Positions 1-15,879 of a stretch of 64,000 nucleotides of DNA are shown piece after piece. The notes under the pieces are model-generated. The model was not told where the DNA came from, did not search any database, and was given only the letters and a program-made list of their open reading frames with translations. Position numbers and translations under genes: made by a program. Source of the DNA: Ruegeria sp. ANG-S4 (lineage in GTDB: Bacteria > Pseudomonadota > Alphaproteobacteria > Rhodobacterales > Rhodobacteraceae); NCBI RefSeq assembly GCF_000814005.1, contig NZ_JWLK01000004.1, forward strand, positions 62,001-126,000. The letters are read 5' to 3'. Numbering within the stretch: position 1 is the first letter of the stretch; each line of letters starts with the position of its first letter.

Positions 1-2
1 GC

Positions 3-2090
3 TATCCGTCCCGGACGAAAGATACCGACGATGTCGACTTTTCGACCGGCTCGGTGGGGCTGGGTGTGGCACAGACCATTTTTTCGTCATTGGTTCAGGA
101 CTACATCCTCGAAAAAAACTGGTCCCCCGTCGCAAAGCCCGGACGCATGGTGGCCCTGCTTGGCGACGCCGAAATGGACGAGGGGAACGTTTATGAGGCG
201 CTTCTGGAGGGTTGGAAACACGGCTTGAGAAACTGTTGGTGGGTTGTGGATTACAACCGGCAGTCTTTGGATGGTGTCGTGCAGGAAGGACTTTGGGAAA
301 GGCTGCTCAATATTTTCGAAAGTTTTGGCTGGGACGTTGTCGTGCTCAAGCATGGAACGAAGCAGGTTGAATCCTTCGCTCAGCCGGGGGGTGAGGCGCT
401 GCGAGACTGGATTGATCAGTGCCCGAACCAGATCTATGCCGCGCTGACCTTTCAGGGCGGGGCGGCCTGGAGAAAGGCGCTGCTGGAAGATCTTGGTCGC
501 CAGAAAGACGTCGTCAAGCTGTTGGAGTCGTACGATGATGAGCAGCTCTCGGAACTTATGTGCAACCTCGGGGGGCACGATTTCGAAAGTATCCTCGGCG
601 CTTTTGAGGATGCCCGGCAACATGAACGGCCAACGGTCTTTATTTGCTATACGATCAAGGGCTACGGCCTGCCGTTGGCTGGTCACAAAGATAACCACGC
701 CGGTTTGATGACCGGCGGCCAGATCGAAACGCTGCGATCCAAATCTGGCGTCAAACCCCAAGACGAATGGGCAAAGCTTGACGGGCTGCCCGGGGTTGAG
801 ACGATCAGGGACTTGATCAAAACCGCGCCATTCTTCTCGACGAAGAACCGTCGGCTCTGTGCGCCGAAGATAAAGTTGGACGCCGAATTTCCAGCACCGG
901 ATACCAAACAAAAGCCGATGTCGACGCAAGCAGGTTTCGGTCAAATCCTGCATGAAATCGCAAAGTCCGACAGCGAGCTTTCGAGACGAATTGTGACAAC
1001 GGCACCAGATGTCGCGGTATCGACAAACCTTGGACCTTGGATCAATCGGAACGGACTGTTTTCCAAACACCCAAAGACGGACGCGTTCAAAGACGCCCGC
1101 ATTCCGTCTGCCTATAAATGGGAAGCGTCCCCGGACGGTCAACATTTTGAGCTGGGCATTGCCGAGTCCAATCTGTTTCTGATGCTTTCGGCACTCGGTC
1201 TGTCGCATCATTTGAATGGTCAGCGTCTGTTGCCTGTTGGGACTGTCTACGATCCCTTCATTTTGCGAGCGGCGGACCAATTGAACTACGCGTGCTATCA
1301 AGACGCCAGATTCCTGCTGGCCGGGACACCCTCTGGCGTGACACTGGCGCCCGAGGGGGGTGCTCATCAGTCCATATCGACGCCCATGCTCGGTATCGCA
1401 CAGGATGGGCTGGCCTATTTCGAGCCGTCATATTTGGATGAATTGGCTGTCATAATCCGCTTTGCTTTTGATTACATGCAACGTGACGGAGACAAGAAAC
1501 CGGAGCCGGGTACATGGCTCCGGGATCAGACAGGAGGGTCCGTGTATCTCCGGCTGTCCACAAGACCGCTGGAACAGATCACCTTGCCCATGACACCGAC
1601 GCGAGAGGCTGACATTATCAGGGGCGCCTATTGGGTGCGTGAACCCGGCCCGAACACAGAGTTGGTTATTGCCTATACCGGGGCCGTTGCCCCCGAGGCA
1701 CTGCGGGCCGTATCCCTCGCGCAGGAAGACAGGCGCAACGTTGGATTGCTTGCGGTCACGTCACCTGACAGGCTTCATGCCGGATGGTCCGCCGCCCAAG
1801 CCGCCAGAGGACAAGGAAAGCGAGATGCCGAAGCCCATATCGAGCGCCTCTTGAAGCCATTGTCCAGAAACTGTTCCATGGTCACAGTGATTGACGGGCA
1901 TCCTGCGACTCTTGCGTGGATCGGCGGCGTTTGCGGGCACCCCACCCGCGCACTTGGTGTCGAACAATTTGGCCAATCCGGCCGTGTCGCTGACTTGTAC
2001 CGGCACTTCGGAATCGACACGAGAGGCATACTGGACGCAGTTTCACAAATCTCGCCGGGCCGCCCTTTGAGACATCTCGAGGCAACATGA
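3..2090 (+). CDS. mdeB: Homodimeric 2-oxo acid dehydrogenase E1 (MdeB/AceE-like), 5' end outside window
   Basis: This is a thiamine-diphosphate enzyme related to AceE, the homodimeric pyruvate dehydrogenase E1. The open frame runs in from the left edge without a stop: the codons before the first GTG (position 54) read DFSTGSVGLG, the usual TPP-domain entry, so the true start lies upstream. About 695 residues are visible, against roughly 880 for AceE. The TPP/Mg motif GDAEMDEGN is followed by a long middle domain and a C-terminal transketolase-like domain. The methionine gamma-lyase gene lies 330 nt downstream. In Pseudomonas putida the lyase gene mdeA is next to mdeB, an E1 homologue that oxidises 2-oxobutyrate, and the same role is inferred here. 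Substrate choice (2-oxobutyrate versus pyruvate) cannot be read from sequence. Confidence 0.8.
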   Translation, partial: YPSRTKDTDDVDFSTGSVGLGVAQTIFSSLVQDYILEKNWSPVAKPGRMVALLGDAEMDEGNVYEALLEGWKHGLRNCWWVVDYNRQSLDGVVQEGLWERLLNIFESFGWDVVVLKHGTKQVESFAQPGGEALRDWIDQCPNQIYAALTFQGGAAWRKALLEDLGRQKDVVKLLESYDDEQLSELMCNLGGHDFESILGAFEDARQHERPTVFICYTIKGYGLPLAGHKDNHAGLMTGGQIETLRSKSGVKPQDEWAKLDGLPGVETIRDLIKTAPFFSTKNRRLCAPKIKLDAEFPAPDTKQKPMSTQAGFGQILHEIAKSDSELSRRIVTTAPDVAVSTNLGPWINRNGLFSKHPKTDAFKDARIPSAYKWEASPDGQHFELGIAESNLFLMLSALGLSHHLNGQRLLPVGTVYDPFILRAADQLNYACYQDARFLLAGTPSGVTLAPEGGAHQSISTPMLGIAQDGLAYFEPSYLDELAVIIRFAFDYMQRDGDKKPEPGTWLRDQTGGSVYLRLSTRPLEQITLPMTPTREADIIRGAYWVREPGPNTELVIAYTGAVAPEALRAVSLAQEDRRNVGLLAVTSPDRLHAGWSAAQAARGQGKRDAEAHIERLLKPLSRNCSMVTVIDGHPATLAWIGGVCGHPTRALGVEQFGQSGRVADLYRHFGIDTRGILDAVSQISPGRPLRHLEAT

Positions 2091-2434
2091 CCTTTAGCGA
2101 AACTTTCCGTATTAAGGGCCAGTGGATCGGGTCTGGCCCGTCCCAAATCATGGGTTTGATAGGTCCGGCGCGTGAAACACCTTGTGTACGGATCACGCTG
2201 GGATCGGCGCGCGATGTGGATACGATGATCACAAACGCAAGCTGTGTGTTTCCCGTCAGGTCCGGCTCAAGCCTGACGATAGGTCAATCTGCGGGCACGC
2301 GGCCTATGGGGCGTACCCCCACGGACCGAAAAGGCGGCTTGCGGAATACCCGGAACCTTACGCTGCCGCATGGATTGGCACTGAACGAAACGACCCATCA
2401 GAATATGCAGGAGAAAGAAAATGTTAAAAAATAG
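2087..2434 (+). CDS. Small unknown ORF between E1 and methionine gamma-lyase
   Basis: I do not recognise this 115-residue ORF. Its ATG overlaps the stop of the E1 gene (ATGA), which suggests translational coupling, and its end runs 14 nt into mdeA. The first half (GQWIGSGPSQIMGLIGPARE) looks protein-like. The second half is rich in Arg, Thr and Gly and looks less so. A second frame (2182-2427) is also open over the later part, so a frameshifted remnant is possible. There is no signal peptide, membrane segment or familiar motif. It may be a genuine small partner of the pathway, a decayed gene, or a chance ORF in a spacer. Confidence 0.35.
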   Translation: MTFSETFRIKGQWIGSGPSQIMGLIGPARETPCVRITLGSARDVDTMITNASCVFPVRSGSSLTIGQSAGTRPMGRTPTDRKGGLRNTRNLTLPHGLALNETTHQNMQEKENVKK

Positions 2435-3620
2435 TCCCAAAGAACTTGGCCCTGCAACGCGCGCAATTCATGAAGGGTACTCGCCATCTGATCACATGGG
2501 CGCGCTGACGCCGCCGATCTTCATGACATCCACCTACGCCTTTGAAACCGCCGAAGAAGGCTCGGAGATATTTGCAGGCGAAAGACCGGGGCTTGTATAC
2601 GGGCGGACGAAAAACCCGACCCAGGCGATTCTCGAGACACGAATAGCCAGCCTTGAAAACGCGGACGCAGCCGTTGCAACGGCGTCGGGGATCGCAGCCA
2701 TCACAGCAACCATGTGGACGCTATTGAAGGCAGGCGACACGATCATCGTGGATCAGGTGATCTACGGGTGTTCCTTTGCTTTCTTTTCCAAAGGGATAGC
2801 GAAGTTCGGGGTGAATGTGAAATTCATCGACATGACCGATCTTGATCAGGTGCGCGATTGCATGGCGCTGAAGCCCAAAGCGGTTTTCTTTGAAACCCCG
2901 TCCAATCCCAATGTGCGGATAATAGATATTGCTGCCGTCACCGAAATGGCACATGAGGTTGAGGCATTCGTGATCGTGGACAACACGTTTGCCACCCCGG
3001 TCATTCAGCGACCCTTGGAACATGGCGCTGATCTGGTTGTTCATTCCGCGACGAAGTTCCTCGGCGGGCACGGAGACCTACTTGCGGGGCTCGTTGCGGG
3101 CGACCAAGGTCTTGTCGATCGCGTGCGCGGCGAGGGTTTGCGCGTTCTTTCCGGGGCAACGCTGTCGCCGCATTCCGCCTTTTTGATTATGCGCGGTTTG
3201 AAAACCCTTAGTCTTCGGGTCGAACGCCATTCGAGTTCCGCGTCGTCGATTGCAAAGTTTCTGTCCGGCAACGAGAAGGTCAAATCCGTTATCTACCCAA
3301 CTTTGCCGGATTATGCGTCGCGCGATCTGGCGGCAAGGCAGATGGGCGACCTTGGCGGCGCGATCATTGCCCTTCGTTTCGATGGCGGGCTGGAAGCGGG
3401 GCGGCGCTTTATCAACAATTTGGGGCTGATAAAATGCGCGGTTTCCCTGGGAGATGCGGAGACGCTGGTGCAACATCCCGCTAGCATGACGCACGGTATT
3501 TATGGACCCGAGGAACGCGCGAAGTTCGGCATCGACGACGAATTGATCAGACTGGCCGTCGGGCTTGAAGATGTTGAAGATTTGATTGCAGACATCGATC
3601 AGGCAATAGGCAGACTTTAG
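2421..3620 (+). CDS. mdeA: L-methionine gamma-lyase
   Basis: A PLP enzyme that splits methionine into methanethiol, 2-oxobutyrate and ammonia in the cytoplasm. Its 399 residues match the P. putida enzyme (398) along the whole length. The residue separating true methionine gamma-lyases from cystathionine gamma-lyases is present: Cys117 in YGCSFAF, equivalent to Cys116 of P. putida. The PLP lysine is Lys212 in SATKFLGG, and the C-terminal SLGDAETLVQHPASMTH and VGLEDVEDL blocks are typical. The start ATG follows a good AGGAG site 8 nt upstream. The gene lies behind an E1 that could take its 2-oxobutyrate product and just before a FAD oxidoreductase. In marine roseobacters such an enzyme is a source of methanethiol. 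Confidence 0.93.
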   Translation: MLKNSPKELGPATRAIHEGYSPSDHMGALTPPIFMTSTYAFETAEEGSEIFAGERPGLVYGRTKNPTQAILETRIASLENADAAVATASGIAAITATMWTLLKAGDTIIVDQVIYGCSFAFFSKGIAKFGVNVKFIDMTDLDQVRDCMALKPKAVFFETPSNPNVRIIDIAAVTEMAHEVEAFVIVDNTFATPVIQRPLEHGADLVVHSATKFLGGHGDLLAGLVAGDQGLVDRVRGEGLRVLSGATLSPHSAFLIMRGLKTLSLRVERHSSSASSIAKFLSGNEKVKSVIYPTLPDYASRDLAARQMGDLGGAIIALRFDGGLEAGRRFINNLGLIKCAVSLGDAETLVQHPASMTHGIYGPEERAKFGIDDELIRLAVGLEDVEDLIADIDQAIGRL

Positions 3621-3634
3621 CTCCGGACCCGCCC

Positions 3635-4924
3635 GTGTTTCGACCCAATGACCAAGACCCGGTTTGGAGCCTGAGTTCCGACGCCCAAAAGAGCTATCCA
3701 AGCCTTTGGGATGATCTGCGATGCGACGTTGCAATCATCGGTGCCGGCTACACCGGGTTGTCAGCAGCTCTCAGGCTGGCAGAAGCCGGCAAGAGCGTTG
3801 TCGTGCTTGAAGCGGATCATGTTGGTCGGGGCGGTTCAGGCCGAAACGCCGGCATGGTCAATTCCGGCCTTTGGCTGGACCCGGATGATGTCGCGGCGAC
3901 GGTGGGACCAAAGGTCGGAAAGCGGCTGAACTCCGCGCTGGCCGGTGGCCCGGATCGCGTCTTCGATCTGATCGCCAAGCATCAAATTCAATGTGCTGCG
4001 CAACGCGCAGGGTCCATTCAGTTGGCCTATTCAGAAACAGATGTCGAAAAACTGCAGCGACGCTATGGTCAGATGTCAAACCTTGGCTGTGATGTGCACA
4101 TGGTTCACGGTGACGCATGTTCAGACGTCGCCGGAACGCACCGCTACCAAACAGGATTGATCGACAAAAGAGCGGGCAGTATCAACCCGCTGGCATATTG
4201 TCGTGGGCTTGCGCAGGCCGCCGAACAGGTCGGCGCCTTGGTTTTTGAGGGTACGCGCGTCACGGGCTTGCAACGCGCGTCGGATGTGTGGTGTTGCGAG
4301 ACGGCAAGAGGCAAAGTCACTGCAGATACTGTGGTGATCGCGACAAACGCACTGACGGCGAAACGTGATTTTCCACGAATCCCGGCACCCATTATACCAG
4401 TTCCATTTTTCCAGTTTGCTACCGATCCGCTGGACGCGGATGGCGAAGCGGTATTGCCACAAGGCCACTGCGCTTGGGACACACGAGACGTCGCGTTCTG
4501 CTTTCGAAAAGACAGCGAAAACAGGCTGGTCATGGGAAGCGTGGGATCTTTGAATGGCATTAGGATGGCGTTGGCCCGAAGATGGCTAAGTGCCGAGATA
4601 CGATGGCTTTTCCCAAAGCTGGGCCAAGTCGGCTGGCAGCTAAGCTGGACCGGGACAATTGGATTCACGGCCAACCATGTTCCGTCATACTTTCAGCCCG
4701 CGCCCAACCTGATCGCACCATCGGGCTATAACGGACGAGGAATCGCGCCCGGAACAGTCTTTGGAACAAACATCGCTGATTACCTGATCTCGGGGTCTGA
4801 AGACGCGCTTTTGTTACCGCTCAAGGCCCCTGTTGGGCATGTCCTGCCGCGGCAGAAAGCGCAGATGATGGATTGGGGTGCAGCGGCCAAACGTGTGTTC
4901 AGAACCTGGAAACTGGCCACCTGA
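3635..4924 (+). CDS. FAD-dependent amine/amino acid oxidase-like protein (DAO family)
   Basis: This 429-residue flavoprotein belongs to the D-amino acid oxidase superfamily and most resembles gamma-glutamylputrescine oxidase (PuuB)-type proteins. The N-terminal PVWSLSSDAQKSYPSLW segment precedes the dinucleotide-binding motif GAGYTGLSAALRLAE (about residue 33), the acidic end of beta-2 (VLEADHVGRGGSGRN), and a C-terminal NGRGIAPGTVFG FAD contact. The start is GTG at 3635, 14 nt after the mdeA stop and with a weak GGA site. No in-frame ATG is near. It probably shares the mdeBA transcript, yet its substrate is unknown. It could oxidise an amine or N-methyl amino acid rather than take part in methionine breakdown. 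Confidence 0.8.
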   Translation: MFRPNDQDPVWSLSSDAQKSYPSLWDDLRCDVAIIGAGYTGLSAALRLAEAGKSVVVLEADHVGRGGSGRNAGMVNSGLWLDPDDVAATVGPKVGKRLNSALAGGPDRVFDLIAKHQIQCAAQRAGSIQLAYSETDVEKLQRRYGQMSNLGCDVHMVHGDACSDVAGTHRYQTGLIDKRAGSINPLAYCRGLAQAAEQVGALVFEGTRVTGLQRASDVWCCETARGKVTADTVVIATNALTAKRDFPRIPAPIIPVPFFQFATDPLDADGEAVLPQGHCAWDTRDVAFCFRKDSENRLVMGSVGSLNGIRMALARRWLSAEIRWLFPKLGQVGWQLSWTGTIGFTANHVPSYFQPAPNLIAPSGYNGRGIAPGTVFGTNIADYLISGSEDALLLPLKAPVGHVLPRQKAQMMDWGAAAKRVFRTWKLAT

Positions 4925-5099
4925 TTGGTCGCTGTCATGTTGTCCGTTGGATCAGAAGCCGATGCAGGCCGCTTGCGTTCTAAGGCGGAAAACCAAAGCG
5001 CCATGGACCTTGGGCTGCAATGACCGCTGTTTTTGCCGAAATCGGTCGTGAACCCGTCACCATGCGAAAAACCCGAACAAAACCGATCCAAGTCATCGG

Positions 5100-5723
5100 T
5101 TGCCACGTATCAAAAACAGTTTGGGAACTGAACGTGTGCGCCAAGGGCTTTTGTTAACTGCAGTCTTTTCGGTAGGCGTCGGCATTATTGCCGGTGTGAT
5201 TTTCATGTCTTCCGGAGGCGCATCACGCGCGCCGGAGCAACAGGCCTATTCAGTTCCGGGCATGCCGGGAATGACTGTTCCCATCGCGCATGAACTTGCT
5301 GATGAGCTGACACCTGCACTGCTGTTGGTCGTGTACGACGCATTCGGTCAGACGCAGGAAGACGCGATCTACGACACCCTGGCCGAGGTGACCCATGGCG
5401 ACGCGTTGGAATATCTTTACCTCGAGCGTGTCGGAGCCATGGCGGGCGGTGGCCTCGACGAAGCGGACCAGACGATCCACGAGATCAACCTTTTGGACAG
5501 TCAGGTCGCGCGTGACGAGGCAACACTGACCATTGATGCAACGTGGCAGGTCATTGGTACGGTCGGCCATGCCGAGCACCTGCATGTGCGGGGAAACACC
5601 TACAAAGCGAATTTGTCCATTTCCCCGGTTGAAGGCGCGTGGCGGATCACTGAATTCGATCTGCGCGACGTGAACAGGGATGCCGCGGGTGAGACGTATT
5701 TGGCACCTGAAGGTGACCAATGA
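5100..5723 (+). CDS. Membrane-anchored periplasmic protein of unknown family, first gene of metal/ABC operon
   Basis: I do not recognise this protein. It has about 207 residues: a short basic N-terminus, one membrane segment (LLLTAVFSVGVGIIAGVIFM) and then a soluble domain expected in the periplasm. That domain has alternating strands and a histidine-containing stretch (GHAEHLHVRGN) that could bind metal. The frame has no ATG. The longest start is TTG at 5100, and GTG at 5136 (just before the hydrophobic segment) is a fair alternative. The last codons overlap the ATPase gene by 4 nt, so it belongs to the operon running to 9573. An ATG at 5062 is out of frame. Confidence 0.6.
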   Translation: MPRIKNSLGTERVRQGLLLTAVFSVGVGIIAGVIFMSSGGASRAPEQQAYSVPGMPGMTVPIAHELADELTPALLLVVYDAFGQTQEDAIYDTLAEVTHGDALEYLYLERVGAMAGGGLDEADQTIHEINLLDSQVARDEATLTIDATWQVIGTVGHAEHLHVRGNTYKANLSISPVEGAWRITEFDLRDVNRDAAGETYLAPEGDQ

Positions 5724-6388
5724 TCAGTGTCGAAAATGTCTCTTTCGCCTATGGCACGGGTGATTTTCGACTGAATGTTCCGCGCTTGTCGATGCAGTCG
5801 GGCGAACGCCTTGCGATTGTGGGGCCCAGCGGCAGTGGGAAGACGACCCTTCTGAATTTGGTCGCGGGTATCTTGTCGCCGGATTCAGGGCGCATTGTCG
5901 TCGCCGGTAAGGATGTCACGGCTTTGACCGATACCGAACGCCGCCAGTTCCGTGCCAGCCATATCGGGTTTGTGTTTCAGGATTTTGCGCTGCTCGATTA
6001 CCTGCCCGCACTACAGAATATCCTGTATCCCTATCGCGTCACGCCCGCGCTGAAACTGGATCAGGCCGTTCGGGAACGTGTCGAGGTTCTGGCGGAGGCC
6101 TGCGGTATTCGCGACAAGCTGGACAGGCACCCCAATGAGCTCAGCCAGGGGGAACAACAGCGCGTTGCGATTTGCCGCGCACTTGTCACGCAACCCAAAC
6201 TCATCCTGTCGGATGAAGCGACGGGCAATCTGGACCCTGAAAGCAAGGGCCGCATTCTGGATTTGCTGTTCGAACAGGCCAGCGAGGCGGGTGCGACCCT
6301 GCTGGCCGTCACGCATGACCATGAGCTTTTGCCGCGTTTCGAGCGTGTGATTGATTTTGCAGACTATCGCGAGGTGGCAGACGCATGA
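5720..6388 (+). CDS. LolD/MacB-type ABC transporter ATP-binding protein
   Basis: A 222-residue ATPase of the lipoprotein-release/MacB branch. Walker A is GPSGSGKTTLLN (about residues 34-45), the Q-loop is FVFQDFALLDYL, the signature is LSQGEQQRVAICRAL, and Walker B with the D-loop is LILSDEATGNLD, the LSDEATGNLD form typical of LolD. The start overlaps the upstream gene (ATGA) and the end overlaps the permease gene by 4 nt, so the two form one transporter. This family powers mechanotransmission or export across the periplasm, not classical import with a binding protein. That is why the ZnuA-like gene later in the operon is surprising. Confidence 0.9.
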   Translation: MISVENVSFAYGTGDFRLNVPRLSMQSGERLAIVGPSGSGKTTLLNLVAGILSPDSGRIVVAGKDVTALTDTERRQFRASHIGFVFQDFALLDYLPALQNILYPYRVTPALKLDQAVRERVEVLAEACGIRDKLDRHPNELSQGEQQRVAICRALVTQPKLILSDEATGNLDPESKGRILDLLFEQASEAGATLLAVTHDHELLPRFERVIDFADYREVADA

Positions 6389-7554
6389 ACACGCTGTACC
6401 TTGCGTTTGCTTACCTGCGTTACCATTGGGCGCGCAGCCTTGTGCTGGTGATCGCCGCTGCGCTGATCTTGTTTGTGCCTGTTGCGACGCAGATATTGCT
6501 TTCGACCAGCCAGACGGCTTTGATCGCGCGGGGGGAGGCAACGCCGCTCTTGCTCGGCAGTCGTGGGTCTCAGCTGGACCTAACGATGGCGGCCCTCTAC
6601 TTCTCCAATGAGCGACCAGACCCCATTGCGATGCGCGAAGTGGATACGATCTGGGACAGCAACCTGGCGGTGCCGATACCGCTGCATACCGCATTTTCAT
6701 CCGGCGGGTTCAGGATCGTCGGCACCTCGCTGGACTACTTCGACTTTCGCGATCTGACCTTTTCAGACGGGCGTGGCCTGTCATTGCTGGGGGACGCCGT
6801 GATCGGTGCTGCGGTGGCGGATGCGCTGGGCAAAGGCGTTGGTGACACTCTGGTCTCTTCGCCAGAGAACCTGTTTGATCTGGATGGCGTTTATCCCTTG
6901 GAGATGCCAATCGTGGGCGTTCTGGAGGCTACAAATACGCCTGACGATCAGGCGATTTTCGTTGATATCAAAACGGCTTGGGTGATCCAGGGGATCGGGC
7001 ACGGGCATGAGGATGTCGTCACCGCAGCAGATATCGCCGCTGGAAGTGAAGCGCTGGCCAATGCCTCCGTCGTGCAGTTTCAGCGCATCACGCCTGAGAA
7101 TATCGAAAGCTTTCATTTCCACGGATCGCAAGGCGATTTTCCGGCCACGGCTGTGATCGTCGTCCCTGCCGACACGCGATCCGCGACAATCCTCAAAGGT
7201 CGGTATCTGGACAGCGAAAACCCGAGCCAGTTGATCGAACCCGCCAGTGTAATTCAAGGACTGGTGGATCGTATCTTTCGCATCAAATCCCTATTGGACG
7301 TGGTGACAGCAATCGTTGCTGTGGCCGCGCTTGCGGCTGTCGGGCTTGCGGTTTTCCTAAGCTACCGGCTACGCGCAAAAGAAATCGCGACGGCGGTAAA
7401 GCTGGGTGCCAGACGGGGCATGGTGTTGCGCCTGCTGGCGGCAGAGACAGTGACCCTGCTGTTCATCTCGGGGTGCATCGCGGCGATCGGGGCCGCATTG
7501 GTTGCACGAAATGCCGACACGTGGGTGGGCTGGCTGCTTTCGCTCGGTGCATGA
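6385..7554 (+). CDS. FtsX/LolE-type ABC permease with His-containing periplasmic domain
   Basis: A 389-residue permease of the MacB/LolCE type. One transmembrane helix lies near the N-terminus (residues about 15-40), then a periplasmic domain of roughly 240 residues, then the C-terminal FtsX helices (about 300-325 and 355-380). The cytoplasmic loop LGARRGMVLRLLAAE is typical of the family. The periplasmic domain holds two histidine clusters, GHGHED (about residue 208) and FHFHGSQGD (about residue 244), which are not a general feature of LolE or MacB and suggest metal contact. It overlaps the ATPase gene by 4 nt and precedes the DUF4198 gene by 14 nt. Confidence 0.87.
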   Translation: MNTLYLAFAYLRYHWARSLVLVIAAALILFVPVATQILLSTSQTALIARGEATPLLLGSRGSQLDLTMAALYFSNERPDPIAMREVDTIWDSNLAVPIPLHTAFSSGGFRIVGTSLDYFDFRDLTFSDGRGLSLLGDAVIGAAVADALGKGVGDTLVSSPENLFDLDGVYPLEMPIVGVLEATNTPDDQAIFVDIKTAWVIQGIGHGHEDVVTAADIAAGSEALANASVVQFQRITPENIESFHFHGSQGDFPATAVIVVPADTRSATILKGRYLDSENPSQLIEPASVIQGLVDRIFRIKSLLDVVTAIVAVAALAAVGLAVFLSYRLRAKEIATAVKLGARRGMVLRLLAAETVTLLFISGCIAAIGAALVARNADTWVGWLLSLGA

Positions 7555-7568
7555 GAAAGGGAGACTAC

Positions 7569-8339
7569 ATGAAAAAGCACGTATTATTTGCACTTTTGGC
7601 GAGCAGTGTCGCGGTCACGCCGGCGCTGGCGCATTACGGTATGATTATCCCGAATGATCCGATGATCAGTCAGGAAGACGGGCGCAGCTTGTCCCTGACC
7701 ATGTCTTTCTCACATCCCTTCGAATTGGACGGGATGATGTTGGAAAAGCCTGTGGCGTTCACTGTCACGCATGAGGGCACCACAACCGAACTGCTCGGCA
7801 GCCTTCAAGATGCCACTGTGATGGAAGATCAGGGCTTCACGCTCGATTACCCGCTGGAACGGCCCGGCACCTACATCTTCGCGATGGAGCCGACGCCCTA
7901 TTGGGAACCTGCCGAGGATGCGTTCATCGTCCACTACACCAAAACCTATGTGACCGCTTACGGCGATGATGAGGGGTGGGATACGGAACTTGGCCTGAAG
8001 ACCGAGATCGTGCCCCTGTCCAAGCCCTTTGGGCTGTGGGAGCACAATGTGTTTCAGGGCATCGTCAAGATGGACGGGGAGCCGGTTCCCTATGCCGAGG
8101 TTGAGGTTGAGTTCTTCAATGATGGCGCCGGTGCGACTGTGCCGGATGAACTAATGATCACACAAACCGTCAAGGCCGACGCCGATGGCGTGTTTACTTA
8201 TGCCGCCCCATCGGATGGCTGGTGGGGCTTTGCTGCGCTGAACACTGCCGACTATACCTTACCGCAGGATGGTGAGGATAAGGCTGTTGAGTTGGGGGCC
8301 GTGATCTGGGTGCACTTCGAAGAATGGACAGGCCAGTGA
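7569..8339 (+). CDS. DUF4198 periplasmic protein (NikK/CbiK-like metal-uptake accessory)
   Basis: A 256-residue exported protein. The ATG at 7569 follows AAGGGAGAC and gives a clean signal peptide ending in ALA before HYGMIIPND. The body is a DUF4198 domain, with the conserved blocks SFSHPFEL, PYWEPAEDAFIVHYTKT, GDDEGWD, GLKTEIVPLSKPFGL and GWWGFAALNTADY. In known cases DUF4198 proteins accompany nickel/cobalt uptake systems (NikK in NikKLMNQO). The first mature residue is His, and the N-terminal His plus SHPF could form a metal site. No nikMNQO genes are present. Here the partners are a MacB-type transporter and a ZnuA-like protein, so the metal is not settled. Confidence 0.85.
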   Translation: MKKHVLFALLASSVAVTPALAHYGMIIPNDPMISQEDGRSLSLTMSFSHPFELDGMMLEKPVAFTVTHEGTTTELLGSLQDATVMEDQGFTLDYPLERPGTYIFAMEPTPYWEPAEDAFIVHYTKTYVTAYGDDEGWDTELGLKTEIVPLSKPFGLWEHNVFQGIVKMDGEPVPYAEVEVEFFNDGAGATVPDELMITQTVKADADGVFTYAAPSDGWWGFAALNTADYTLPQDGEDKAVELGAVIWVHFEEWTGQ

Positions 8340-8671
8340 TACGCGCGATGGGCCTAGCCTCGCTGTTTGCCGCTGCGCCTTTGGCGGCAGCCGCGCATCA
8401 GCTTGTGGTCTTCGCCTCGGTAGATTGCGAGGTTGTCACCGTCGAAGCCAAGTTTTCGAACGGCAGGGTCGCCCAAACGGGTGAGGTTCGGGTTTTGGAC
8501 GGTGAAAACGCGCTGATGACAACATTGCCGCTCGGCAGCGATGGCATGGCGCGTGTTCCGTTGACCAGTGTTGACCATTCTTCGGGCTTGGTGATCGAAG
8601 TGGATACCGGCGGGCATGACAACTATTGGATTGTGACCCCGGAAGACATTGCGCGGAAATGCGGGAGTTGA
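8324..8671 (+). CDS. Small exported NikL-like protein
   Basis: A 115-residue protein with a signal peptide (GLASLFAAAPLAAAA, then HQLVVFASVDC). The mature part resembles the short NikL-type accessory proteins found beside DUF4198/NikK, with a carboxypeptidase-regulatory-like beta fold suggested by EVRVLDGENALMTTLPLGSDG and a GGHDNYW end. The mature N-terminus again begins with His after the predicted cleavage site. The ATG at 8324 overlaps the DUF4198 gene by 16 nt. A GTG at 8336 would give the common GTGA overlap and a shorter leader. It ends in an overlap with the next gene's ATG (TGATG). Confidence 0.6.
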   Translation: MDRPVIRAMGLASLFAAAPLAAAAHQLVVFASVDCEVVTVEAKFSNGRVAQTGEVRVLDGENALMTTLPLGSDGMARVPLTSVDHSSGLVIEVDTGGHDNYWIVTPEDIARKCGS

Positions 8672-9573
8672 TGGTGCATCGATATATCGAACGTGTTGTC
8701 CTTGCGGTCTTTGGCCTGCTGATGGCGACGGTTGTCGTGGCGCAGGACCGGCCCAAGGTCGTCGCGGTCAATTATCCCCTCCAGTATTTCGCCGAACGCC
8801 TTTTGGGCGGTTCTGCCGAGGTTGTGTTCCCGGTGCCGGATGGAGTTGATCCGTCATTCTGGCGGCCGTCCATCAGCGATATCAGCATGATCCAGTCGGC
8901 GGATCTGATCCTGTTGAACGGTGCGGGTTTTGCGACCTGGGTGGACCGCGTAACGCTGCCGCGATCGCGCTTGGTGAACACCACTGCCGCGATCAAGGAT
9001 CAGTTCATCGTGACCGAGTCCATCACCCACAGCCACGGCGACGGGGGTGAACATTCGCATGAAGGGCTGGCATCATATGTTTGGCTCGATCCGACGCTTG
9101 CAATGGCGCAGGCCGAGGCGATTGCCGAGGCGATTAAGGCCCGCAACCTTGCGCCGCCCGATGAGGTAGAGGACCGGCTACAGCAACTCCGCAAAGAACT
9201 TGAAGCGCTCGACCAACAGGCGAAATCGGCTTTTTCAGACGTCCAGAACGCTGCGCTAATCGCAACCCATCCGAGGTACCAATACTTCGGTCGCCGCTAT
9301 GGCCTGGAAATCTCCTCCCTTGAATGGGAGGCCGGGGCCACCCCAAACGACGCGCAAATTGCAGAGCTTCAAATGCTGGCGCAGGAAACCGCCGCACAGG
9401 TGTTGATCTGGGAAGCTGAACCACCGGTTGAAGCGATTGAGGCCGTCGAATCCCTGGGTTTGCAAAGTGTGATCTTTCCGACGCTCGTCCGGGAACCCGC
9501 AGATGCGACGTACCTCAGCTCTTTTGAGCAGTCGGTTGGAACACTTTCTGAAGCGATCCAAATGCGTCAGTAG
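8671..9573 (+). CDS. ZnuA-family substrate-binding protein with degenerate metal site
   Basis: A 300-residue member of the cluster A-I zinc/manganese binding proteins, with signal peptide (cleavage near VVAQD). Family blocks are clear: VVAVNYPLQYFAERLLGG, PDGVDPSFWRPS, ADLILLNGAGF, VWLDP and THPRYQYFGRRYGL. Of the three His that bind zinc in ZnuA, only the third is kept (His200 in ATHPRY). The first (DPH/SEH position) is Ser62 and the second (HxWL position) is Tyr136. A short His loop THSHGDGGEHSHEG (His 120, 122, 128, 130) is still there. ATG at 8671 overlaps the previous stop. No znuB or znuC accompanies it. It may hand metal to, or sense it for, the MacB-type transporter of the same operon. 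Confidence 0.82.
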   Translation: MVHRYIERVVLAVFGLLMATVVVAQDRPKVVAVNYPLQYFAERLLGGSAEVVFPVPDGVDPSFWRPSISDISMIQSADLILLNGAGFATWVDRVTLPRSRLVNTTAAIKDQFIVTESITHSHGDGGEHSHEGLASYVWLDPTLAMAQAEAIAEAIKARNLAPPDEVEDRLQQLRKELEALDQQAKSAFSDVQNAALIATHPRYQYFGRRYGLEISSLEWEAGATPNDAQIAELQMLAQETAAQVLIWEAEPPVEAIEAVESLGLQSVIFPTLVREPADATYLSSFEQSVGTLSEAIQMRQ

Positions 9574-9707
9574 AGGGGTCCGTAATTCCCGACCCGACAA
9601 TAAATCGGTTGTCTTCCGTTCTATCAATCGTTTGATTGGCGATATCTGTGCGTCGTGCGCCGTCCGAAGCGCACGTGCGGCCTGATCCGCGAGTTTAGGA
9701 GAGACCC

Positions 9708-10850
9708 ATGGAAATCAGACCCTTCGGCGTCGAGATGTGGATGAACGAGTTCGAGACGAAATGCGAACTCAACCTTGCGGAAACCTGCGTCGAATCCATA
9801 ACGCTGGGTGAACTGTTCGAAATGGCCGGGCAGCATAACAGCATTCTTGGCGACCTGTCGGCATTGAAGATGACCTATGGTGCCATTGAAGGTTCGGAAC
9901 GGCTGCGACATGCGATCTGCGGATTATACGAGCACCAGACACGCGACAATATCCTGACTACGCACGGCACCATCGGGGCCAATTCTCTGGTGCATCAGAC
10001 GCTTGTGTCACGTGGCGACCACGTGATTTCGGTCATCCCGACCTATCAGCAGCACTACTCGATTCCCGAGAGCATTGGGGCCGACATTGAGTTGTTGCAT
10101 CTTTTGCCCCAAAACGGGTTTCTGCCCGATCTGAACGTGCTGCGCGACATGGTCCGACCGGGCACGCGGCTTATCGCAATCAACAATCCCAACAACCCGA
10201 CCGGCGCTTTGATGGATCGCGCGATGCTGGAACAGATCGTTGAGGTCGCACGCAGCGTTGACGCCTGGATTTTATGCGACGAGGTCTACCGCGGTACGGA
10301 TCAAACCGGGGATGGGTTCACGGCGGCTGTCGCGGACCTTTATGAAAAAGGGATCAGCACGGCGGGCATGTCCAAAGCCTATTCGCTGGCCGGGTTGAGG
10401 GTGGGCTGGATCGCAGGTTCCAAAGATCTGTTGCACGATGTGATGTTCCACCGCGACTACAATACGATCTCGGTCGGACAGGTGGACGAGCTTCTTGCCG
10501 CGATGGCGCTGGAAAACCGTGACCAGATCCTTGAACGTGCGCGGCGGATTACGCGCGAAAACCTGCGGATCGTCGAAGACTGGATTTCAGATGAACCCCT
10601 ATTGAGTTGGGTGCCGCCAAAGTCGGGCACGACGGCATTGTTGAAGTACGATCTACCGATGTCGTCACGCGATCTGTGCGTCGCGCTGCTGAAGGAAGAA
10701 GGCGTTATGCTGACCCCGGGCAGCGCAATGGATATGGAGGGGTGGTTGCGTCTTGGCTACACCAACCCGACGGCGGATCTGAAGGCGGGGCTAAAGAGGC
10801 TCTCGGGCTTTTTGGCACGCCATAACGCAAACCTTGAAGTCAGCCGATGA
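9708..10850 (+). CDS. PLP-dependent aminotransferase, class I/II
   Basis: A 380-residue cytoplasmic fold-type I PLP enzyme. The pyridoxal-contact motifs are in order: NNPNNPTG (about residue 162), the Asp/Tyr motif CDEVYRG (about 188), the Schiff-base lysine in GMSKAYSLAGLRVGW (about 225) and a C-terminal WLRLGY with the substrate-carboxylate arginine. The start ATG at 9708 has TTTAGGAGAGACCC upstream. The family includes capreomycidine synthase-like and general aminotransferases. The substrate cannot be told. It stands alone, with 134 nt before it and a 340-nt gene-poor gap after it. Confidence 0.85.
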   Translation: MEIRPFGVEMWMNEFETKCELNLAETCVESITLGELFEMAGQHNSILGDLSALKMTYGAIEGSERLRHAICGLYEHQTRDNILTTHGTIGANSLVHQTLVSRGDHVISVIPTYQQHYSIPESIGADIELLHLLPQNGFLPDLNVLRDMVRPGTRLIAINNPNNPTGALMDRAMLEQIVEVARSVDAWILCDEVYRGTDQTGDGFTAAVADLYEKGISTAGMSKAYSLAGLRVGWIAGSKDLLHDVMFHRDYNTISVGQVDELLAAMALENRDQILERARRITRENLRIVEDWISDEPLLSWVPPKSGTTALLKYDLPMSSRDLCVALLKEEGVMLTPGSAMDMEGWLRLGYTNPTADLKAGLKRLSGFLARHNANLEVSR

Positions 10851-11189
10851 GCGTTTGCGATTAGAGCGCGAAGTCCAGCGGTATCGATTCTTATGCGCAG
10901 ACTAAAGAATCGGTTTCTGCAATTTCCACGCGGCACAGACCCTGCGGGACATGAATTCGCCATAATCCCGCGCAGCGTCAAAAAGGCTGTGCAGAGTCTC
11001 ACCACTGTTTTCGTCGGCTATGTCGTCATTGGGCCTTTTCTCGACCCCCAATGTTGATTTTTGCCGGTCCCTGCGCGCCAACAAGCGGGAACTCGCCGCT
11101 TGCGGCGCGTCAGGAAATTGTGATGAGGCTTCGTCAAATTCTAGACAATATTGCCTCCAATCATACTAAAAAGTACTGGAGGACAGTGG
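10851..11189 (+). other. Gene-poor gap with one perfect inverted repeat
   Basis: No convincing gene lies in these 339 nt. The small reverse ORF here (10902-11084, 60 codons) has no family features and no good start. Close to the aminotransferase stop is an inverted repeat, CGATTCTT at 10885-10892 and AAGAATCG at 10905-10912, 8 bp perfect around a 12-nt loop, without a T-run. The part near 11125-11160 is AT-rich and probably carries the promoter of the CAP-domain gene, although no clear -35/-10 pair stands out. AGTACTGGAGGACAGTGG (11172-11189) supplies the GGAGG binding site of that gene. Confidence 0.5.
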
Positions 11190-12629
11190 ATGTCACGGGC
11201 AAGTTCCCTTGAGCTCGAGATGCTCAACCTGATCAATGCCGAGCGTACGTCACGCGGGCTTGATCCGGTTCAACTGGAATTGCGGCTGAACGCAGCAGCC
11301 GAGGATCACAGCGAATGGATGCTGGATACAGACATCTTTTCGCACACCGGCGTCGGTAACAGCTCGGCGACAGATCGCATTCGGGATTCCGGTTTTGTGC
11401 TGTCCGGGTCTTGGCGCACTGCAGAAAACATTGCCTGGCAAAGCCAGCGCGGCGTTCCGGGGTTCAGCGACGATGTCGTCGACTTGCACAACGCGCTGAT
11501 GAACAGTTCGGGCCACCGCGCAAACATATTGCACCGGGATCTGGACTATATAGGGATCGGTATCGAGATCGGAACCTTTGACGGCTATCCCGCTGTGATG
11601 GTGACCCAGAACTTTGCCCGCACATCGGCGGGTGTTCAGCTGGATACAGGTGCACCGAATCCGACACCATCTGATCCGCCGCCCGATACTGTGATCGTCA
11701 ACGACACCCCCGGTCAGAACAACAACCCCGAGCCCACATCCTCTCGCGAGCATTTTGCATTCGACGGTCAGAACAGTGTTCTGCAGGGGTCGCCTTCGGA
11801 ATTGAACAGGGACACGATCAGCAACTTCGATGAGGGCAAAAAGCTGATCCTTGAAGGCGTCGAAACGGGTCGTTCGAACATCCGCTTCAACAGCAATTCC
11901 GAAATCGCGATCGACACTGATGGCGATGGCGATATGGATGTGACGATCTCACTGTCCGAGGGGCGCTCGGGCGGTGACATTTTTGCCATCACCATTGATG
12001 GAAACACCATTATCAGCTACGCCAAGTATCTTCCCAACCTGTCAGACGGAGAACGCGTCAGCCGCAGCGACGTCAACGGCATCGTGAACAAGGAATTCCT
12101 TGCTGGCGATGGCGAGACTGATTTTCGCATCGAACTGAATGACATCGGGCATGCAGGTTATAACAACGTTCTGGGCGTCTACGATATTCTCGACAATGGC
12201 GAGATCACCAATGTTCGCCTGATCTACAACAACACGAACCGCGATTCCGGGTCTGTCACGATCAACGATGTTGCCGATGGCGCGCGCCTTGGGTTTTTCG
12301 TTGTCCAGAATGCCGCTGATTGGGCGCGTTCGATTTCCGGTAGCGATGTGCTGGAGTTCCGTTCGAGCAACGGAGATGTTGCGGACGTAGATGATGACTT
12401 CGATCTGATCCTCATGGTGAACGGACGGGCCGCAAACGAAACGACGTTCCATGCGGAAAAGGCGTCATTGAATGTCGATAATGCACAGCACGCTCTGTCG
12501 GGCATCGTCGAAGGCGGAGAGTCGATGATAATCGGGTTCGAAGACCTGACCGGTGGTGGCGATCAGGACTATGAGGACGTGGTCTTTACCGTGACACGTA
12601 TCGAGGATGATGCGCTGGGCATTGTCTGA
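11190..12629 (+). CDS. Secreted CAP-domain protein with C-terminal DUF4114 domain
   Basis: A 479-residue protein. Residues about 8-145 form a CAP/SCP-PR1 domain, with LNLINAERTSRGLDPV, HSEWMLDTDIFSHTG, ENIAW and SSGHRANILHRDLDYIGIGIE carrying the usual His and Glu residues. A Pro/Asn-rich linker follows (about 150-190), then a beta-rich calcium-type region with DTDGDGDMD, and a C-terminal DUF4114 domain ending in GGGDQDYEDVVFTV. There is no Sec signal peptide: the protein starts MSRASSLELEML. Acidic, Asp/Gly-rich proteins of this build in roseobacters usually leave by type I secretion with a C-terminal signal, and that is inferred here. ATG at 11190 follows GGAGG. No secretion genes are adjacent. 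Confidence 0.82.
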   Translation: MSRASSLELEMLNLINAERTSRGLDPVQLELRLNAAAEDHSEWMLDTDIFSHTGVGNSSATDRIRDSGFVLSGSWRTAENIAWQSQRGVPGFSDDVVDLHNALMNSSGHRANILHRDLDYIGIGIEIGTFDGYPAVMVTQNFARTSAGVQLDTGAPNPTPSDPPPDTVIVNDTPGQNNNPEPTSSREHFAFDGQNSVLQGSPSELNRDTISNFDEGKKLILEGVETGRSNIRFNSNSEIAIDTDGDGDMDVTISLSEGRSGGDIFAITIDGNTIISYAKYLPNLSDGERVSRSDVNGIVNKEFLAGDGETDFRIELNDIGHAGYNNVLGVYDILDNGEITNVRLIYNNTNRDSGSVTINDVADGARLGFFVVQNAADWARSISGSDVLEFRSSNGDVADVDDDFDLILMVNGRAANETTFHAEKASLNVDNAQHALSGIVEGGESMIIGFEDLTGGGDQDYEDVVFTVTRIEDDALGIV

Positions 12630-12645
12630 TTTTTTGGAACGTTGT

Positions 12646-12671
12646 CAGAAAGCAGCTAGCGCTGCTTTCTG
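12646..12671. terminator. Perfect 11-bp stem-loop between convergent genes
   Basis: CAGAAAGCAGC (12646-12656) pairs perfectly with 12661-12671 around the loop TAGC. It lies 17 nt after the stop of the CAP gene and overlaps the last codons and TAG stop of btuC on the other strand. There is no T-run directly after either arm, so it may act as a two-way transcription barrier or protect mRNA 3' ends rather than work as a textbook terminator. Confidence 0.5.
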
Positions 12672-13669
12672 GCCGTTCTGAACAGCAACAGAAACACGAA
12701 GACCGACCCGATTGATGTGGTCACGATGCCAACCGGCAACTCTTGTGGCGCGAGCAAAAGGCGGCTCAGGATGTCCGAACCGGTCAGCAGGGCAGCGCCA
12801 ACTATGGCGGCTGTGGGCACAAGGTGGTTGTGCAGAGGTCCCGTTATGCCGCGTGCGATATGCGGCACCATAAGACCCACAAAGCCGATCACGCCAGCAA
12901 CCGACACAAAAACAGCGGTGGCGAGCGCGGCGACAAAGAACATGCGAAATCGCAGGCCCTGAACCGGAACGCCCAACGTTGCGGCGGTCAGATCGCCGGT
13001 CAGCAAAGCATCCAGCCAGCGCGCGCGGTACAAGGAATAGGCCAGAATCAAGGCCAGACCAGCGCAGACAAGCGGAAAAGTCTCCCACCGCGCAAGGCCC
13101 AGCCCGCCCAGCATCCAGAAGATCACCGAATGCGCGGCCCGGCTGTCGCCGGCAAAGATCAGGTAATTGGTAATCGCCGAAAACAGAAAGGATACGGCCA
13201 GCCCGGCCAGGATCAGCTTTTCGGGCGCACTTGTCCGAAGCCCGTGGACCAGCGCCAGAACAATGCCCGAAGCAACCAGGCCGCCGCAAAACGCCGCCAA
13301 TGGCAAGGTCCAAAGACCCAAAACGTCACCAGTGACGGTGATAACGAACACGGCCCCTGCCGCGGCCCCTGAAGACAGGCCAAAGAGAAACGGATCAGCC
13401 AGATCGTTGCGCGTCGTTGTCTGCAAAACAACGCCGACAATGCCCAGCCCGGCACCGATCACGGCGGCAAACAGGGCGCGAGGCAGGCGCAGGTCAAACA
13501 CGATCCGGTGCATCGGCGACATGTCACCTTCGGTCAGTCCGGTGCCCAACAGGATCGCGTTGAACGTATCGGAAACAGGGATCGACGTGGTGCCGTAGAC
13601 TGTCGATATCAGCAAAAGGGCGGTCAGAACGACCGCCCCCAGCAAAAGCGTCAGAGCCATTCGGCCCAT
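12656..13669 (-). CDS. btuC: Cobalamin ABC transporter permease (FecCD family)
   Basis: A 337-residue inner-membrane permease of the BtuC/FecCD family with about ten hydrophobic helices. The conserved GLGIVGVVLQTTTRNDLADPF region (TRNPLADP-type) and the C-terminal VGLMVPHIARGITGPLHNHLVPTAA block, which contacts the ATPase, are present. It is the last gene of a riboswitch-led operon on the minus strand, and its start lies 2 nt beyond the stop of the binding-protein gene. The upstream cobalamin riboswitch points to B12 or a corrinoid as cargo, not a siderophore. By family alone haem or ferric siderophore would be possible. Confidence 0.88.
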   Translation of the reverse strand: MGRMALTLLLGAVVLTALLLISTVYGTTSIPVSDTFNAILLGTGLTEGDMSPMHRIVFDLRLPRALFAAVIGAGLGIVGVVLQTTTRNDLADPFLFGLSSGAAAGAVFVITVTGDVLGLWTLPLAAFCGGLVASGIVLALVHGLRTSAPEKLILAGLAVSFLFSAITNYLIFAGDSRAAHSVIFWMLGGLGLARWETFPLVCAGLALILAYSLYRARWLDALLTGDLTAATLGVPVQGLRFRMFFVAALATAVFVSVAGVIGFVGLMVPHIARGITGPLHNHLVPTAAIVGAALLTGSDILSRLLLAPQELPVGIVTTSIGSVFVFLLLFRTARKQR

Positions 13670-13670
13670 A

Positions 13671-14618
13671 TCAGTTCAGACCCGGATGCATGGCCTTCGC
13701 CATTTTCGAGATCGCCTCAATATTTGCCGGTCCGGGTGTCAGTTCCTCATAGCGCAGACCGATCCAGCGTTCGTTTTTGACCGCATCAGTCTGCGACATC
13801 ACCGGATGCTCCTGCAGGAACTTAAAGGTGTCTTCGGCTCCGTTGCCGGTCTGATAGTCCAGCAGAACAAGGAATTCGGGATTGGATGCGGCGACAGCCT
13901 CCCACGAGGAGCGACCCCAGCTGGTGTCCATGTCGTGGGTGACATTCTCTCCGCCCGCAGCGGCAATCATTGCGTCCGGAATGGCGAACTTTCCGGCAGT
14001 GAACGGAGCGTCCGCAGGGCCATCCAGCAGGAAAACACGGGGCTTGGACAGATCGGCAGTCTGCGCTTCGATCGCCGACAGTTCATCCTTCCAGCCCGAA
14101 ACAAGGGTTTCAGCCTTGTCTTCGACATGCATGACTTTGCCCAGTCTCAGGACGTCGTCGAACAGCAGATCCATGCTGGCCTCGGGGCGATCTTTGTCCA
14201 GATGCACGCAGCTTTCGGTCAGGATCATGGTCTTGATGCCGAAGGGTTCCAGCGTGTCGGGCGTCACGTCGCCACCCGGCTTCATGCCGTAGTACCAACC
14301 GGCAAAGAACAGGTCCGGCTCGACCGCCACCAGGTTTTCGACGGTCGGGTATTTCGGTGCCAGTTCCGGTATATCACCGCGCAAATTGTCGAATTCCGGG
14401 CTGGTCTTGTACCATCCGGTGATACCTGTCAGGCCGACAATCTTGTCCTGCAAGCCAAGGGCAAAGGCCATATCGGACATGTTCATATCATGTACGACCA
14501 AGCGTTCGGGCTGGGTTTCGAACACCAGCGGTTCGCCGCAATTGTCGACCGAGACCTCGTGGGCAGAGGCGCCGCCTGCGATGGCTGTGGCCAACGCCAC
14601 GGACCAGATGTGTTTCAT
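13671..14618 (-). CDS. btuF: Cobalamin-type periplasmic binding protein
   Basis: A 315-residue cluster A-II binding protein (BtuF/FecB type) with a signal peptide ending at GASA before HEVSVDNCGEPL. The order of blocks is usual: PERLVVHDMNMSDMAFALGLQDKIVGL, EPDLFFAGWYYGM, and the C-terminal lobe with WGRSSWEAVAASNPEFLVLLDYQ. Glu residues that salt-bridge with BtuC arginines are expected in the LDYQ and late helix areas but cannot be fixed without alignment. The gene stands between the ATPase and permease genes of the same operon. Its role as a corrinoid receptor is inferred from the riboswitch upstream. Confidence 0.87.
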   Translation of the reverse strand: MKHIWSVALATAIAGGASAHEVSVDNCGEPLVFETQPERLVVHDMNMSDMAFALGLQDKIVGLTGITGWYKTSPEFDNLRGDIPELAPKYPTVENLVAVEPDLFFAGWYYGMKPGGDVTPDTLEPFGIKTMILTESCVHLDKDRPEASMDLLFDDVLRLGKVMHVEDKAETLVSGWKDELSAIEAQTADLSKPRVFLLDGPADAPFTAGKFAIPDAMIAAAGGENVTHDMDTSWGRSSWEAVAASNPEFLVLLDYQTGNGAEDTFKFLQEHPVMSQTDAVKNERWIGLRYEELTPGPANIEAISKMAKAMHPGLN

Positions 14619-14636
14619 TGGGGAATGCTCCTTGAT

Positions 14637-15413: not shown

Positions 15414-15766
15414 TGCGCCACCTCGGGTCTGATCCCGGGCATGCGCGACAGCGTTTTGGTATACAAAGCGCGTGGTCGGTCCGTCGCGCTGGTCCAGCCG
15501 TCCTCGCTTCTGCGGTACTGACGGGCAAACTCTGTCAACGCCATGACGTCTTCGTCTGTGGTGATGTTGCCGAAAAGGTATTGCGCCTTGCCATCGGCCT
15601 GAAATCCAACGGTTGTTGGATGGGCGCACCCCGCCATGCAGTCGACCGACCGTATCGCAAATCCGGGTGGCGCGTTCTTTCCCAGTTTCTCTCTCAGCGA
15701 TTCAAACGATTGAGAGCCGTTGCACGTCGCACAAACGAGGATGAAGTGATCAGCTGTGTCCGGCAT
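15410..15766 (-). CDS. DUF1636 family putative metal/iron-sulfur protein
   Basis: A 118-residue cytoplasmic protein of the DUF1636 family, thioredoxin-like [2Fe-2S] ferredoxin type. Four cysteines sit in two pairs: CATCNG near the N-terminus and CMAGCAHP in the middle, the usual ligands of that fold. ATG at 15766 has GGAG 8 nt upstream. The gene is the first of the riboswitch-controlled operon and overlaps btuD by 4 nt, so it probably acts with corrinoid uptake or use, perhaps in reduction or metal handling. Its biochemical role is not known to me. Confidence 0.8.
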   Translation of the reverse strand: MPDTADHFILVCATCNGSQSFESLREKLGKNAPPGFAIRSVDCMAGCAHPTTVGFQADGKAQYLFGNITTDEDVMALTEFARQYRRSEDGWTSATDRPRALYTKTLSRMPGIRPEVAQ

Positions 15767-15836: not shown

Positions 15837-15879
15837 CTAAGCCTCCTTCCAGGACGCCCCGCCCCGGGTTGGTTGAACA

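Follow-up and report, generated by a model that had tools for sequence, protein, structure and literature searches.

What a MacB-type transporter does when its genes are packed together with those of relatives of nickel- and zinc-binding proteins is the question raised by six open reading frames (ORFs), A to F, at 5100-9573 on the + strand of a contig of Ruegeria sp. ANG-S4 (NZ_JWLK01000004.1, positions 62,001 to 126,000; the window below is this whole stretch of 64,000 nucleotides). Our answer, a tentative one to which we give somewhat less than even confidence, is that the operon might encode an ATP-driven machine that hands metal from protein to protein in the periplasm, built on a type VII (MacB/FtsX-like) ATP-binding cassette (ABC) complex. 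The first-pass annotation had placed here six genes that overlap or lie within 14 nt, and all six frames were found as it gave them, each on the + strand: A (5100-5723; a membrane-anchored periplasmic protein with an uncertain TTG start codon), B (5720-6388; ABC ATPase), C (6385-7554; MacB/FtsX-like permease with three predicted membrane helices), D (7569-8339; secreted DUF4198 protein), E (8336-8671; small secreted NikL-like protein with a GTG start and an alternative ATG at 8324) and F (8671-9573; ZnuA-family protein). The A/B and B/C junctions are overlaps of 4 nt, C and D are separated by 14 nt, D and E overlap by 4 nt (16 nt from the ATG start) and E and F by 1 nt, and these overlaps suggest that the six genes may be co-transcribed. 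Terminator-like matches on both strands of 4850-9760 numbered seven against 5.1 in shuffled sequence (standard deviation 2.3), about the level of chance. The closest copies of the operon are found in Ruegeria genomes; many of the genomes surveyed here are drafts, and counts taken from related genomes are not independent.

Protein F belongs to the ZnuA family (PF01297, 147.3 bits against a cut-off of 29), with YcdH and AdcA among its relatives in the PDB, and it falls under the cut-offs of all eight NCBIfam models listed. Histidine is replaced at two of its three ligand sites, namely site 1 (Ser62, 8854-8856, in DPSFW against the usual 'EPH') and site 2 (Tyr136, 9076-9078, in SYVWLDP against 'DPHVWL'), and is kept at site 3 (His200, 9268-9270), while the stretch HSHGDGGEHSH (9028-9060) represents a family loop of the form HxHG..xHxH. 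Among 63 distinct full-length F proteins, with the reference sites taken from solved ZnuA relatives, histidine was observed at site 1 in none (S in 34, A in 12, I in 7, E in 5 and five others), at site 2 in 12 (lost in 51) and at site 3 in 59, and the loop pattern HxHG..[HQ]xH was present in all 63. Nine ordinary ZnuA-family paralogues from the same loci or genomes all carry histidine at sites 1 and 2, and two of them show the loop pattern. The same loss appears in 20 proteins gathered later (from L168, L169, L176 and L192-L209): none has histidine at site 1 (which is A in 18, P in one and R in one), 2/19 have it at site 2 (lost in 17/19) and 17/19 at site 3, and the loop is present in 18/20; the remainder are L201, which is cut at a contig end, and L193, which lacks the last histidine and is the one real exception. 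The 63 F proteins form a single clade (100/100) separate from ordinary ZnuA-family proteins in a tree that was built after the two groups had been divided by profile score. Within this unrooted tree a roseobacter/Granulosicoccus group (38 rows, 100/99) lies beside planctomycete and myxobacterial lines, an arrangement that would fit transfer into roseobacters. Since the ligand histidines of ZnuA have been lost, F is not to be taken for an ordinary zinc-binding protein.

The ATPase and the permease are the motor of the proposed machine. B matches ABC_tran of Pfam with 117.9 bits and is an ATPase of the FtsE/LolD/DevA sort; the best 25 of 215 NCBIfam models all remained under their own cut-offs, and the nearest proteins outside the family, among the ATPases compared, are ZrgC proteins with 37-40% identity. 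C matches MacB_PCD (PF12704, 33.2 bits, cut-off 27) and, partially and under the cut-off, FtsX (20.8 against 25.5 bits, positions 3-71 of 120 only). A model of C from 13 rows (predicted local distance difference test, pLDDT, 84.5; predicted template-modelling score, pTM, 0.76) contains three long helices (15-52, 286-329 and 344-375) followed by a short one (377-387), and the four ZrgB proteins aligned with it extend about 45 residues further and include one more hydrophobic stretch. C therefore seems, like its homologues and judged from model and alignment, to be without the fourth membrane helix, unlike type VII permeases, which are described as having 4 + 4 helices and as periplasmic mechanotransmission pumps (PMC8277102; this and the other papers named by PMC number are cited from parts of their text). 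Foldseek with the model retrieved MacB (5gko, E 3.7e-11) and a LolCDE chain (9rlc_E, E 2.2e-9), as well as YbbP and HrtB; the global template-modelling (TM) scores were modest, with a best value of 0.46, and the periplasmic domain was matched better (3ftj, TM-score 0.61 by target). This domain carries two histidine motifs, GHGHxD (6997-7014) and SFHFHG (7108-7125), whose surroundings lie in or beside segments missing from the four ZrgB proteins, and the four histidines concerned (H206, H208, H244 and H246) are kept in at least 95% of 43 copies and in 13/13 of a diverse set.

No family could be assigned to A, its match to SnoaL_4 (16.5 bits) lying under the cut-off of 24. Its model, based on 15 rows with a pLDDT of 85.1, shows a membrane helix followed by helices and a four-stranded sheet, that is, an NTF2/ARC6-like alpha+beta domain; the best PDB match is an ARC6 domain (E 1e-5), with VirB8 and Tim44 domains matching more weakly, and the ARC6/PARC6 intermembrane domain, VirB8 and NTF2-like proteins are the closest folds solved. 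An HxxHxH motif (H157, H160 and H162; 5568-5585) was present in 17/18 A proteins, the exception (L134) being cut at a contig end. In planctomycetes and some other groups A has a large N-terminal extension with a signal-peptide-like beginning, and the start of the planctomycete extension aligned with the N-terminal domain of HupE_UreJ_2 proteins, those used being the ones encoded near non-ribosomal peptide synthetase (NRPS) clusters (hhalign probability 88, E 2.8e-6, 88 columns). The HupE/UreJ-2 N-terminal domain Ang-1 is described as binding copper and nickel, with a zinc-binding protein of V. cholerae (8F1B) as its closest solved fold (PMC12537917). Searches of solved structures with D and with the extension of A returned nothing useful.

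D is a DUF4198 protein (PF10670, 181.6 bits, cut-off 34), and NikK, the nickel-system protein, is one that we take to be of the same family. With the cleavage sites judged by eye, the mature proteins D and E are both predicted to begin with histidine, His22 in D (7632-7634) and His21 in E (8396-8398), and these residues are kept in at least 95% of 36 and of 35 rows, respectively. E scored 50.9 bits against the NikL model NF058648, whose cut-off is 100, over positions 3-99 of 180, the N-terminal half; as the match is under the cut-off and covers half of the model, E is a remote relative only. A protein termed IsDUF4198 is reported to bind nickel with a Kd of 18 nM through its N-terminal histidine and His18 (PMC12537917), and NikK and NikL are reported as components of nickel systems, orphans without NikMQO having been noted (PMC2667541). 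The first-pass annotation did not notice the loss of ligand histidines in F, the division into a core A-B-C-F and an added D and E, or the apparent absence of a fourth membrane helix from C. Its observation that nikMNQO and znuBC are absent holds for the operon; the genome contains other ZnuA-family ABC systems elsewhere.

The earlier idea of a system had been made to depend on a conserved gene order as well as on co-transcription. By tblastn the order A-B-C-D-E-F was observed in 33 of the 42 loci of named records (L036-L077) and in all 23 shorter stretches (L007-L029), a set that partly repeats the former, giving 56 of 65 partly overlapping stretches when pooled. Such conservation across many genera is more than chance. 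The roseobacter-type exceptions include L058, where D and E were not found and 10 N stand in the stretch behind C, L065, which is without D, and L067, whose contig ends inside D, while L073-L077 from other groups are without D and E. At 7357-9842 of L063 there is a decaying copy with an altered N-terminus of B and a shortened D, in which A, E and F were not found; the ZnuA-family matches in its genome are weak only (best 1.3e-10). Of the 292 genomes of the order that were searched with protein C, 24 gave strong matches (E at most 1e-124) and another 68 weak ones only (best 1.5e-14), the latter being ZrgB genes beside zrgA in the two loci opened. Strong matches are limited to two of the 16 genomes of the genus itself, suggesting that the operon comes and goes.

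A wider search with a 13-row profile detected C in 51/199 planctomycete genomes (in 50 with an E of 4e-85 or lower), in 29 of 282 genomes of Myxococcota, the phylum of L074 (27 at 5.5e-74 or better), in 7 of 369 of the class of G349 (probably Gammaproteobacteria) and in 3 of 299 drawn evenly across the whole phylum to which the window belongs, one of these three being a weak match (5.5e-32) with a C-terminus that resembles the four-helix kind. The 20 planctomycete loci read A-B-C-F in 13 cases, B-C-F in three, and A-B-C and B-C in two each, so that F lies near C in 16/20. A further 20 loci, 7 from one and 13 from the other of the Myxococcota and G349-class samples, contain F in 18 and A in 15, with A sometimes on the opposite strand or behind F, and both loci without F stop at a contig end. 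D and E were not found in either set of 20 loci. In L075, B and C stand without F, and the genome encodes F at another place, next to a gene for A. The module occurs with D and E in Granulosicoccus (Gammaproteobacteria, L069), and as A-B-C-F on a Methylomagnum plasmid (Gammaproteobacteria), where its neighbours are CopC and TonB-receptor genes and nikR. On a plasmid of Paracoccus liaowanqingii (L169) the order is DUF4198-A-B-C-F-D-E, so D and E accompany the core in another arrangement too; this operon (1-6753 of the locus) lies behind type II secretion genes, with a second, different DUF4198 gene ahead of A. The core, A-B-C-F, is shared with members of Planctomycetota, Myxococcota and Gammaproteobacteria; D and E are a regional addition, and B, C and F are co-inherited.

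On the proposed reading, D and E, or, in other phyla, the large domain that A carries as a fusion, would capture divalent metal; a B2C2 complex with the anchored A would use ATP to move the periplasmic domains that bear the histidine pairs; and this movement would hand metal to F or strip it from F, which may hold it by the HxHGxxGxHxH loop in place of the lost ZnuA cleft. We infer metal binding, an ATP-driven hand-off and these directions of flow from the combination of metal-capture candidates, a motor that works in the periplasm and a histidine loop that replaces the cleft of F. The capture candidates differ between versions, being D and E here, the extension of A in others, CopC in Methylomagnum and ZrgA in the cousin Zrg system. 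Periplasmic metal trafficking, as the first-pass annotation had suggested, is indeed what the component families point to. Nickel or cobalt is a weak first choice of metal, leaning on the DUF4198 and NikL relationships, a single nikR, the HupE resemblance and a few neighbouring B12 riboswitches; the Zrg relationship leans to zinc, and CopC and Ang-1 to copper.

Several points weigh against a hand-off. The model would not predict the zinc import reported for ZrgABCDE, which is the closest system described so far. The three-helix claim comes from one prediction and the alignment with four ZrgB proteins, and the histidine motifs of C do not occur in every copy (of 22 loci, 18 have GHGH and 17 have SxHxH, the remote L133 being left out of the count). 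Some F proteins have lost site 3 as well (4/63 and, in the later set, 2/19), and three proteins of the later set have a histidine one place past site 1. A Zur operator had been among the sites proposed for the upstream region; within 300 nt upstream of A, a Zur-like site (GTTAT-N3-ATAAC) occurred in 0/43 copies at up to one mismatch and in 1/43 at two mismatches, under the shuffled mean of 2.1, and was thus not above chance. The E. coli-type NikR operator is GTATGA-N16-TCATAC, and no match of at least 9/12 was found in the window from 1 to 16500, in L168 or in L169, with Fur, Irr and Mur boxes outside the search; single 10/12 matches exist in five other loci. No metal family recurred among those listed for 95 flanking ORFs in the Myxococcota and G349-class samples (25/50 and 25/27 families listed; the ORFs come from 136 mechanical candidates, false ORFs included). 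The hand-off reading is drawn from sequences and predicted models.

The same parts could instead form an importer related to ZrgABCDE, with D, E, A and F as the metal binders and B-C as the route into the cytoplasm. In the comparison of transporters, ZrgC and ZrgB came out as nearest to B (37-40% identity) and C (about 25%), the Vibrio zrg mutants are reported to grow poorly without zinc (PMC9820375, PMC9817125), and the Methylomagnum copy adjoins a TonB receptor and nikR; however, C seems to be without the fourth membrane helix, no ZrgA gene is present in the operon, the cleft ligands of F are lost, and the related PA4065 has been interpreted as an exporter subunit (PMC11481552, PMC8561739), so that we regard import as possible but rather unlikely. 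The rise in cell cobalt reported on deletion of PA4065 (same sources) and the MacB-like fold of C might speak for an efflux or detoxification pump by which the periplasm is rid of a metal or of a metallophore-metal complex. So might the NRPS genes found next to the operon in five loci; they lie upstream of it in L036 and L059 and downstream and convergent in L037, L038 and L042 (assigned in L037 and L038 through similarity to L036), but in the genome studied here the NRPS orthologue lies on another contig and only 3/292 genomes of the order have one, two of them with the operon; moreover, neither an outer-membrane factor nor a MacA-like adaptor is found among the six genes, and we consider efflux improbable. 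Slightly less credible still is a non-metal envelope process of the FtsEX/LolCDE sort, with histidines that are structural or constitutively zinc-binding. The fold of A is used in protein-protein scaffolds (ARC6, VirB8, Tim44), and metal genes did not recur among the families listed around the module in the two samples scanned, yet ZnuA, DUF4198, a NikL relative and an Ang-like domain converge in one module and histidines are conserved in A, C, D, E and F. We therefore place hand-off ahead of import and export. A stronger form of it would make this a categorically new system, in which a three-helix type VII motor moves nothing across the membrane and uses ATP in the periplasm to load or strip metal between N-terminal-histidine capture proteins, an NTF2-like histidine protein and a ZnuA-fold carrier that has exchanged its cleft for a fixed histidine loop. 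Such a system would be widespread in Planctomycetota and would have reached roseobacters by transfer, the capture of metal there falling to DUF4198 and NikL-like proteins; this we hold to be doubtful.

The surroundings of the operon offered several leads to regulation and substrate. Nickel as a settled substrate was rejected, for nikR stands beside the Methylomagnum copy, yet NikR_C was found in only 2/20 family-carrying genomes. Of the 33 loci scanned (L067, L068, L071, L072 and L073-L077 were left out), three (L043, L045 and L065) have a cobalamin riboswitch at most 8 kb behind C, against an expectation of 0.48 (Poisson P 0.013, from 37 riboswitches in 10 genomes of about 41.8 Mb by rounded sizes). 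Cobalt by way of B12 was set aside as a lead only, the association being post hoc, the three loci having been picked for their neighbours and the loci being related. The window has a cobalamin riboswitch of its own (15869-16071, 122.8 bits), 8.3 kb behind C and so outside the 8-kb limit and uncounted; downstream of it lie genes for a FecC-like permease, an ATPase, a binding protein and a small protein that by eye resembles DUF1636, and the whole (12656-16071, - strand) is a B12-controlled importer convergent with the operon. Cobalamin riboswitches also stand upstream of ZnuA-family ABC importers at 4335-5647 of L097 (contig C12 of the same genome) and at 12343-15348 of L045, a hint at cobalt import.

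Enriched 8-mers and hexamer inverted repeats upstream of A gave nothing widely common. In 13/38 loci of the roseobacter type (shuffled mean 0.5) the region upstream of A contains a promoter-like element of approximately CTTGCAGTCC-N8-CTGTAACARGTT, often at a distance of 65-72 nt from the start codon; the pattern was derived from the same loci, so the count is not independent, and the element is absent in the window. As for the NRPS genes, a HupE_UreJ_2 gene was found near them in the three regions tested by Pfam, one of the five loci contains an ATP-pyrophosphatase-like (QueC) stretch, and the genes with their neighbours form a possible metallophore cluster; the orthologue in the genome studied here (C18:141533-145324; L163, L165) stands alone. 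An NRPS metallophore was rejected as a part of the system because orthologues are too few.

How new is this gene set? No description of it was found in the open-access literature, as judged by titles, abstracts and term counts, so that the earlier claim of an undescribed system survives in that sense; it does not survive as a claim of a new kind, as MacB-type metal operons have been published. These are ZrgABCDE of Vibrio cholerae and V. parahaemolyticus, a zinc operon reported as an importer (PMC9820375, PMC9817125), and PA4063-PA4066 of Pseudomonas aeruginosa, linked to cobalt-pyochelin and reported as an exporter (PMC11481552, PMC8561739). The operon shares with both a two-gene MacB-type ABC core with a separate ATPase, and is like them in that a periplasmic metal-binding partner is encoded in the same operon, with a role in metal starvation in the published cases. 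It differs from both in having a ZnuA-fold protein as the partner, and from ZrgABCDE in having no match to ZrgA (PF10986) among A-F. Its permease is about 25% identical to the four ZrgB proteins, stops short of the final hydrophobic stretch of these and bears additional histidine motifs. No Zur-like site above chance was found upstream of the 43 copies. A ZrgA gene is present elsewhere in the genome (C18:117714-118163; L090 7583-8179), with no C-like or ZrgB-like permease in the surrounding 16 kb read.

Other known systems resemble single parts. F shares its fold family, PF01297, with the cluster A-I proteins ZnuA and AztC, but is without two of their three ligand histidines, has a fixed loop, forms a separate clade and is encoded with a type VII permease, no ZnuB-type permease being present in the operon. 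As in NikKMLQO, there is a DUF4198 protein with a predicted N-terminal histidine after its signal peptide and a remote relative of NikL, whereas NikM, NikQ and NikO are absent from the operon and E matches half of the NikL model under its cut-off. D is of the same family as the DUF4198 binders, and the planctomycete extension of A resembles the Ang domain of the anglerases (HupE/UreJ-2), both groups being N-terminal-histidine binders; what is added here to the binders, as far as the cited parts of PMC12537917 describe them, is a MacB-type partner. With MacB, LolCDE, YbbAP and FtsEX, all of type VII, C shares the permease fold and a MacB-like periplasmic core domain, but it would have three helices rather than four by prediction and alignment, and no MacA, LolA/B or EnvC partner is found among the six genes.

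The family is a variant of the published MacB-type metal operons, marked by its ZnuA-fold partner and by a permease predicted to have three helices. As opposite directions have been reported for such operons, a Vibrio importer and a Pseudomonas exporter of cobalt-pyochelin, a sister family with a ZnuA-fold protein whose cleft has been dismantled provides an independent handle on how these pumps treat metals. The presence of the C profile in 51/199 planctomycete and 29/282 Myxococcota genomes suggests that part of the metal handling of these bacteria may rest on this module.

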